From positions 51,379,249 through 51,443,248 of the forward strand of contig NC_088295.1 in NCBI RefSeq assembly GCF_032854445.1: DNA of 64,000 nucleotides, in the 5' to 3' direction. The notes under the pieces were generated by a model. That model was not told the DNA's origin and searched no databases. It saw nothing but the letters and a program-made list of their open reading frames with translations. How positions within the stretch are numbered: position 1 is the first letter of the stretch; every line of letters starts with the position of its first letter. Origin of the DNA: Liolophura sinensis (Eukaryota > Mollusca > Polyplacophora > Chitonida > Chitonidae). A program made the translations under genes and the position numbers. This document shows positions 35,901 through 38,900 of the stretch, one piece after another.

Positions 35901-38900
35901 TCTAGTGCGGCTTCACTGAGACGACTTACCACAGGTAGGTAAGCTGCCCCGCCTGAGCCATTATACTGATACGGGTCAACCAGTCGTTGCACTATCCCCT
36001 TCATGTGCACATCCCAGGATAGAACCCCCACCTTGTGGTTAGAAATCATCATATTTTATGTAGGATACACAGCATTCTGGAAGATGGTCCAGTATAACAT
36101 CATAACCCTCCCAAAAAACAGAACTTACTGAACCACAAAGCACTGGAACATACTGTCTGGGTACTCTTCCTGGAATGGTGCCTGAGCTTCTATCACACCC
36201 ATCCACCAGGCGTCATCAATCATCGACCGAAAACGGTCCCCTGGATAAATAAACATATGTATGGTTTCTGAACCAGGACAGCTTTTCTGTAGATTGGAAA
36301 TGAAGGGTGAGGGGGGAGGGGGGGGGGGGGGAGGGGAGGGGGTGCAGGGTTAGCTTAAAAATAAGGACATATATATATATATATGAATTTCTCTGGTGTT
36401 GAAAGTGGCAATTGCACAGAATCCCACAAGCCATCCTAAGAAATTCTGGTTCACGTGAGCAGGAGGTATCTCAGACCTCATACTAGTGCACGAGCAGATG
36501 GAATGAATGAATGAATGATTATGGCTTAACGCCACAACGGCAATATTTCAGCCATACCATGGCGATGGAAGGGAAGTTCCGTTCTAAATTCTTCATCTGG
36601 TGTGTAATCTATCTGTGGAGAGGAGTTTTTTTCTCAGATGAAGAAACATTAAATTACTTTGATGTAGTCATAACAGTCCTCTAAATCAAAAAAGTTGTCC
36701 TATCACTTACCTGCCTTCCACTTGCGGTTGCATAGCTGTGTCATAGTTCTGTTTTAGCACCAAGAAATCTATTACATCAGGCATGTCATGATACCTAAAA
36801 CATGGCAATTCCCAATTTGTTCCATCATGCTTCATATACTCATTATTAATAATTATTTGTTATTAATTTATTTGTTGTAATTGCCGTAGGGAATGTCTTT
36901 TCAAGCCTTCATTTTAGTCATCATTACGAGCTGTGTTTATTTTTAACACACAATGAATGCCCTTATCAGAGAAATTAAAACACACCAAACAAATCTTTAA
37001 ACTGTAATCTATTCCTATCTACATGAAACCCTCACCCATGGTAGTACAGAAAATTCAATTTTGTATACCCTTCTATTTTTTTTTTTTCTTTTCCTTATAT
37101 TTTTACCTCCATATTCAAGAGCTTTGAGGACATTAAGATTCACCAGTAAATAATTAAGACATTTGGTAGAGAGCTGTCAGATGTATGACATGAACTTTTC
37201 ATTCATGACTCAAACACAATTAGATGTTTAAGCTTTATACTTCAAGGTAATGCTGAATGCAGAACTCACTTAATATTGAATGCAGAACTCACTTAATAAT
37301 GAACTCACTTATTACTGAATGCAGAACTCACTTAATACTGAACTCACTTAATATTGAATGCAGAACTCACTTAATACTGAATGCAGAACTCACTTAACAC
37401 TGAATGCAGAACTCACTTAATACTGAATGCAGAACTCACTTAATACTGAACTCACTTAATGCTGAATGCAGAACTCACTTAATACTGAACCCACTTAATA
37501 CTGAATGCAGAACTCACTTAATACTGAATGTTCCACCTCCTGCCTTCCCTGTTTGTGAGTCGATAAAAGCTAACTTCAAACAGCACAGTCGGGGAGGTTT
37601 AATCTCATACTTAATTCCCACAATTTTTACCAGCTCCTGTTCCTGTAAGGCATCAGAAAGTACACTACATGTACTTTGAAAAGATTCAATGGTACACACA
37701 AGTATACTAGTGAAAAAGATTCAAGTGCATACATGTATTAGGGATATAGAGAGCTGTTTCTCATTAGTGACTGGATTTATATTTATTTGATTGGTGTTTT
37801 ACGCCATACTCAAGAATATTTCACTTATACGACAGCGCCCAGCATTATGGTGGGAGGAAACCGGGCAAAGCCTGGGGGAAACCCACAACTATCCACAGGT
37901 TGCTGACAGACCTTCCCATGTACGGCCGGAGAGGAAGCCAGCATGAGCTGGACGTGAACTTACAGTGGCCACATTGGTGAGAGGCTCCTGGGTCATTATG
38001 CTGCGCTAGCGCGCTAACCAACTGAGCCACGGAGGACCCCTACTGGATTTACAACAGTACACTACAAATTTGCAATGTTCATTTTTTTTTTTGTCAAAAG
38101 CAGCATATTTCTAAAAGAGTAAAAATATATATAATCATAAACTGCCTTAAAATTACCCTTAAATTTGGATGCTTATTCCAGGGCTGGTTCTTATTTAGGT
38201 AAACATCGTAAGTCTTCTGTCTCTTTACAGCTTGTAAGTACAGCTCGTGACCTTGACGGAAGTATATGACCTCATCCCCCATCTGAGCAACATAGGGAGC
38301 TTTACGAGGGATGGTATCAGTCAGCCATTCAGGGGGACGGAACTCCTCTGGTAATTCCTCCACGCCATTCACATTGTTGATAATTTGGCGTTTCTGAAAA
38401 ATGACAGCTGGATTATTTGAATTCTGTTACTATAAAAAAATACTGAACATACATGTGGCTCCTCCCTCCGGAACGTCTGGTGATGCCAGGTGTTGTTGGA
38501 TCTACATGTACTGACGGTTTACCAGAATTCTCATTTTAATGGGACACACAACATCGCAGGTAACTATATTTTGCCCCAGAATCCACCCCAGAGACGAGGC
38601 TTTATCTAATTCGCAACACTGTTGAACACGAAAGGCAACAAACCAGTTACAGTTGAGTGCTAATGTTATTAAAGTTCCAGTTGGGCTACTTTAGATTTAT
38701 TTATTTGATTGGTGTTTTACGCCGTACTCAAAAATATTTCACTTATACAATGGTGGCCAGCATTATGGTGGGTGGAAACCGGGCATAGCCCGGAGGAAAC
38801 CCATGACCATCCACAGGTTGCTGCCAGACCTTCCCACGTACGGCCGGAGAGGAAGCCAGTATGAGAATGACTTGAACTCACAGCGACTGCATTGGTAAAA

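Follow-up and report, generated by a model that had tools for sequence, protein, structure and literature searches.

Minisatellite-like tandem duplications of exon/intron borders, called mirages, have been described in amphioxus for Adh3 and the globins BflGb6 and BflGb9, and the Adh3 data and globin RT-PCR suggest that regular splicing is left undisturbed by them, as far as the accessible part of the article goes (PMC3087553). Within the open-licence PMC literature no mirages were found outside lancelets, and the amphioxus globin paper was the only one whose accessible text treats them. Tandem donors of the GYNGYN type are said to be neighbours a few bases apart and mostly to cause small protein changes, and a human IFI6 (6-16) minisatellite with multiple splice donors was reportedly described by Turri, Cuin and Porter in 1995. 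Splicing of IFI6 makes use of two downstream repeat units as donors, from which three mRNA species arise, according to the accessible portion of PMC4526556; PMC2915984 and PMC3618361 merely cite the IFI6 paper in the portions accessible. The dog LHX3 gene was also considered as a parallel and set aside, its case being, in the accessible part of the report, one of a short intron and not of repeated donors (PMC3223203).

The array described here lies at an exon/intron border of a BRWD gene, within a 64-kb stretch of DNA (the window). The exon concerned (37518..37642, minus strand, 125 nt, phase 2) starts after the acceptor ttacag and ends with TTCAGTATTAA; on the minus strand it reads ttacag/GAACAGGAG ... 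GGAACATTCAGTATTAA/GTGAGTTCTGCATTCAGTATTAAGTGGGTTC, where slashes mark borders. The true donor GTGAGT (37512..37517, minus strand) is the copy flush on the exon, and the border TTCAGTATTAA/GTGAGTTC is itself the unit of a minisatellite (37248..37530, minus strand), which by TRF and by cutting into units is built of 23-nt and 16-nt repeats, reaches 13 nt into the exon and extends over 270 nt of the intron. The shorter unit lacks seven bases that the longer one has between two TTC. The TRF score was 366 for a 62-nt higher-order unit and 328 for the 23-nt unit, and with 13 copies and a score of 366 a chance origin of the array was rejected. Cutting at GTGRGTTC gave 13 donors, i.e., the true one with its GT at 37517 and twelve further copies (37264..37494, minus strand) with GT at 37494, 37478, 37455, 37439, 37416, 37393, 37370, 37347, 37331, 37308, 37292 and 37269. 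The donor reads GTGAGTTC in 12 of the 13 copies and GTGGGTTC in the other, and the GT is kept in all 13. An earlier note on this DNA had described an array that begins inside the exon, grew from its border, runs about 270 bp into the intron and supplies about twelve extra copies of the same donor, and this description is borne out by the TRF limits and the count. Tandem repeats commonly cause assembly error, and the copies, or their place at the exon, could have come from misassembly; however, point changes and a 7-nt deletion variant occur among the copies, the window contains no N and the layout recurs at other genes, which makes such an artefact exceedingly improbable.

The open frame, together with the next acceptor, sets the position of the border. 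The next BRWD exon (36711..36794, minus strand) follows ttttag/GTATCATGACATGCC, has its first base, a G, at 36794 and opens with G/TATCATGAC, and the frame stays open when both exons are joined. When a script joined the two exons from each of the 13 donors in turn, with exon lengths from 125 to 373 nt depending on the donor chosen, the spliced frame was open from the first donor only; each of the other 12 led to a lysine and then TGA. The same note had claimed that a downstream copy brings an in-frame stop right after the junction and that a full-length product requires the first donor, and both claims held at 12 of 12 downstream donors. BRWD is a chromatin-reader gene. By Pfam, the two exons once joined contain a BRWD/PHIP ancillary domain (PF25313, E 2.4e-30), and two exons later in the gene match a bromodomain (PF00439, 3.4e-23); the latter has 384 matches among solved structures, where no match was found to the exon alone or to the joined exons. 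The peptide at the junction, SIK/YHDMPD, is one which we take to be conserved in human BRWD proteins. The joined exons were found at a single place in the assembly, and no second BRWD copy was found for a comparison of array length.

As in the amphioxus mirages, the arrays in the BRWD gene are tandem border copies beside the true border, with splice signals in the copies and at both 5' and 3' borders. The repeat unit spans the border (13 nt of exon plus the donor), the true donor is the first copy, the copies carry splice signals including every GT, and the donor array 37248-37530 is accompanied in the same gene by an acceptor array at 44625-44805. A minisatellite at the exon end supplies several donors, as in IFI6; unlike IFI6, whose downstream units are used, every downstream BRWD donor would truncate the protein, as predicted from the frame. 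The close competing donors also recall the GYNGYN tandem donors, unlike which BRWD has a minisatellite of 13.

The acceptor array (44625..44805, minus strand), with TACATAG/ATTCC in its unit, is the mirror image of the donor array, the true acceptor being the last copy and the first exon base lying at 44629. A start at 44629 fits, because the previous exon ends with ATG/GTAAGT on a whole codon. The pattern matched seven upstream copies, five of which keep the AG; from four of these five the reading meets a stop, and the remaining one (44669) puts the exon out of frame. Another array, with a unit of 26 nt (25491..25858, minus strand), has its start, by reading-frame position, within the stop codon that ends the long frame 25857-26957; this frame is presumably the last exon of the BRWD gene, and Pfam gave no match to it. 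No exon border was seen at the ends of the arrays 27545-28288, 32073-32169 and 42022-42199. At 5667-6661 (plus strand) two minisatellites adjoin each other, and the unit of the second contains GGTGAGTG and GTTACAG, a donor-like with an acceptor-like word. An element of about 200 nt, which we assume to be a SINE, is repeated at 33940-34173, 37742-37980, 38695-38924, 45354-45516 and elsewhere in the window, with similar frames on both strands. An open frame beside the BRWD gene at 60235-60501 (plus strand) resembles a cis-prenyltransferase by its motif.

The donor array is best taken as a mirage, quite probably a neutral border-spanning duplication from which exon definition picks the exon-flush donor. 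Its seed would have been a tandem duplication across the exon/intron border, which would then have grown into the intron via slippage or unequal exchange. Exon definition may favour the exon-flush donor through the signals of the exon, the closeness to the upstream acceptor and the earliest transcription, while the downstream copies would be ignored, or would yield little RNA that is then destroyed; the array itself would be neutral and changing in length. Support for a neutral mirage comes from the exon-flush start, the 12 truncating copies, the second border array in the same gene and the other flush arrays presented below, as well as from the pooled GT decay, which is like that of the rest of the unit, from the varying donor number at near-duplicate loci and from the regular splicing of amphioxus mirages. 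On the other side, duplicated equal donors often lead in vitro to a preference for the downstream one, and intact GT in all BRWD copies would also be expected from upkeep.

For the recurrence of flush arrays, 36 loci were fetched, namely 16 of the 17 C1 clusters among the AGGTRAGT matches listed and 20 of the 25 further clusters among the CAGGTGAGT matches listed; four AGTGAGTTC-type loci were left out. The array starts no more than 60 nt from the first intact donor in 33 of the 36. At 24 of these 33 loci the first donor is the end of an open frame 35 codons or longer, vs 9 of 33 when the mirrored far side is read (Mann-Whitney on lengths, p 1.2e-4), and the lengths also differ from the background (p 8e-4), although an open frame is by itself weak evidence of an exon because 35 codons are also reached at 38% of background GTR sites. 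The near-duplicate pairs L018/L019 and L023/L024 were counted as separate loci. Within each pair the count of intact donors is unequal (11 and 10 in the first pair, 21 and 36 in the second), and these loci offer a way to study how array length changes after duplication, for which no second copy of BRWD itself was found.

Homology was tested with the exon peptides ending at the first donor, and it reached E 1e-4 or better at six flush arrays: LACTB (L037, 1.5e-9), TTC7 (L044, TTC7B, 1.8e-11), helicase-like chains (L012, 3.8e-11), which we take to be Mot1/BTAF1, SUFU (L053, 1.5e-9), ankyrin (L011, 2.8e-8) and A49 of RNA polymerase I (L050, 1.4e-5, below Pfam's own cut-off). Apart from BRWD, between 7 and 18 intact donors were counted in each of five arrays with homology support. 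When 25 exon peptides were run against Pfam, 5 reached 1e-4 and 13 had no match at 0.1; one of those 5 is PRKCSH (L048, 3.5e-13), whose array, beginning farther downstream, does not adjoin the exon. Among 11 flush arrays outside BRWD, only 1 of 127 downstream donors keeps the frame open; homology was found for L011, L012, L037, L044 and L050, and an open frame only for L018, L022, L025, L038, L041 and L051. As nearly all downstream donors close the frame, the exon-flush donor would be needed most of the time, and the working of these 11 genes, as of BRWD, seems to depend on its being mostly used.

Ten clusters were picked from the single-site list irrespective of spacing, and five of them, as judged by eye, come after a coding exon (L053, L058, L060, L061, L062); two of these five have family support, and the match of L058 to a fucosidase (1.1e-3) is below the cut-off. 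Twenty isolated CAGGTGAGT sites were drawn from 49 unclustered loci among the matches listed (507885 was passed over), and five of them look like exon ends by eye, without homology test (L067, L068, L069, L077, L084). As an argument for donors as preferred seeds, the comparison of 5/20 isolated sites with 5/10 clusters was discarded, because samples this small and judged this roughly do not allow true donors to be told from other occurrences of the word.

Copies of 17 arrays were aligned to their units and pooled, and mismatches to the unit occurred in 127 of 955 GT cells, in 518 of 4300 cells at the nine donor positions and in 1285 of 9588 cells at other positions. The donor positions thus have a slight shortfall (p 0.03), which is expected because the arrays were chosen by intact donors. 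The GT mismatch ranges from 0 to 0.40 by array, and the largest array, L024, weighs most. The pooled GT decays about like the rest of the unit, and neutrality fits better than upkeep; the BRWD array has lost no GT, but its copies are too few to weigh. These figures bear on the possibility of a regulated decoy array, in which some transcripts would use downstream donors and stop after the lysine, so that the RNA would be destroyed (a dial of gene dose) or a bromodomain-less protein made, the array length tuning the share. Twelve near-identical donors with an immediate stop in 12 of 12 and an intact GT in every BRWD copy would suit such a decoy, and the downstream repeat donors used in IFI6, as reported in the accessible part of PMC4526556, count both in its favour and against neutrality. 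However, the layout recurs at unrelated genes, the pooled GT is not spared, and regular splicing is undisturbed by amphioxus mirages in the accessible account of PMC3087553. A decoy function is accordingly rated unlikely, and the neutral mirage remains preferred.

The extent of such arrays in the genome was estimated from word counts, with each word counted in threes and the reversed word as control; the places overlap inside arrays, and the counts are therefore not numbers of arrays. The word CAGGTGAGT in threes has 167 places vs 3 for its reverse, a clear and strong enrichment, while it is weak for CAGGTAAGT (90 vs 54), AGGTRAGT (710 vs 350) and AGTGAGTTC (29 vs 15). Acceptor arrays as a genome-wide class found no support, the acceptor-like TTTGCAGG in threes having 80 places vs 66 reversed. 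It has also been considered that a row of donors could be a recruitment platform, which would bind U1 particles and so aid the true donor, speed splicing or guard against early polyadenylation, with wrong use rare. Many consensus-matching donor sites lie near the true one and CAGGTGAGT arrays are over-represented, as such a platform would predict; yet the over-representation of CAGGTAAGT is weak and the pooled GT decays like other positions, and we regard a platform as very unlikely.

Single CAGGTGAGT sites number 10097 in the genome and those of the reversed word 2731. Among the first 100 sites of each word list, all on C1, runs of at least three within 300 bases were found at 8 of 59 loci for CAGGTGAGT, against 2 of 91 loci of the reversed word and 3 of 89 of CAGGAGAGT (donor vs both controls together, Fisher p 0.004), and runs of at least two at 10 of 59, 6 of 91 and 4 of 89, respectively (p 0.009); one CAGGAGAGT control site sits within a donor array. 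The run rate for this one nine-base donor is 1.5 per Mb, and extrapolation from 5.3 Mb of one chromosome would give about 900 such runs in 609 Mb. Border arrays thus seem to be common in this genome. The earlier note had called the donor array unusual, which does not hold here, where similar arrays recur, and the kind had already been named in amphioxus.

Unlike the mirages reported so far, which have lancelet hosts, the BRWD array stands in a genome with mollusc-type haemocyanin; the host group is no structural feature of a mirage. In this genome eight haemocyanin beta-sandwich domains (PF14830) lie in a row, each within a long open frame, over about 11.4 kb (C8:37880506-37891931; L063, L064), and none was found in 14 control genomes. 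This domain is known as a marker of molluscs. The GFP family, which lancelets have, was not found in this genome, a weak sign as the 14 control genomes are silent too. No earlier mollusc report of such arrays was found in the open-licence PMC literature, swept mostly without a mollusc focus. What is new is the animal group and the apparent scale, the mirage kind itself being already known.

With eight adjacent mollusc-type haemocyanin domains in this genome, mirages would extend beyond lancelets and would be shown not to be peculiar to them. A broader reading, which we put forward only tentatively and hold to be possible rather than probable, is that splice borders, above all donors of the GTGAGT type, may be preferred minisatellite seeds, so that hundreds of genes would carry runs of near-identical splice sites from which the spliceosome still picks the exon-flush copy. 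If true, the arrays would form a natural library for the choice between equal splice sites, and also a source of new introns. Donor choice among equals has usually been studied with few engineered copies. As the arrays hold many intact donors and nearly all the downstream ones close the frame, RNA reads of the ordinary kind from a single animal could put the rule of donor choice to a direct test, and many genes of this genome would thus offer a natural test of wide use.
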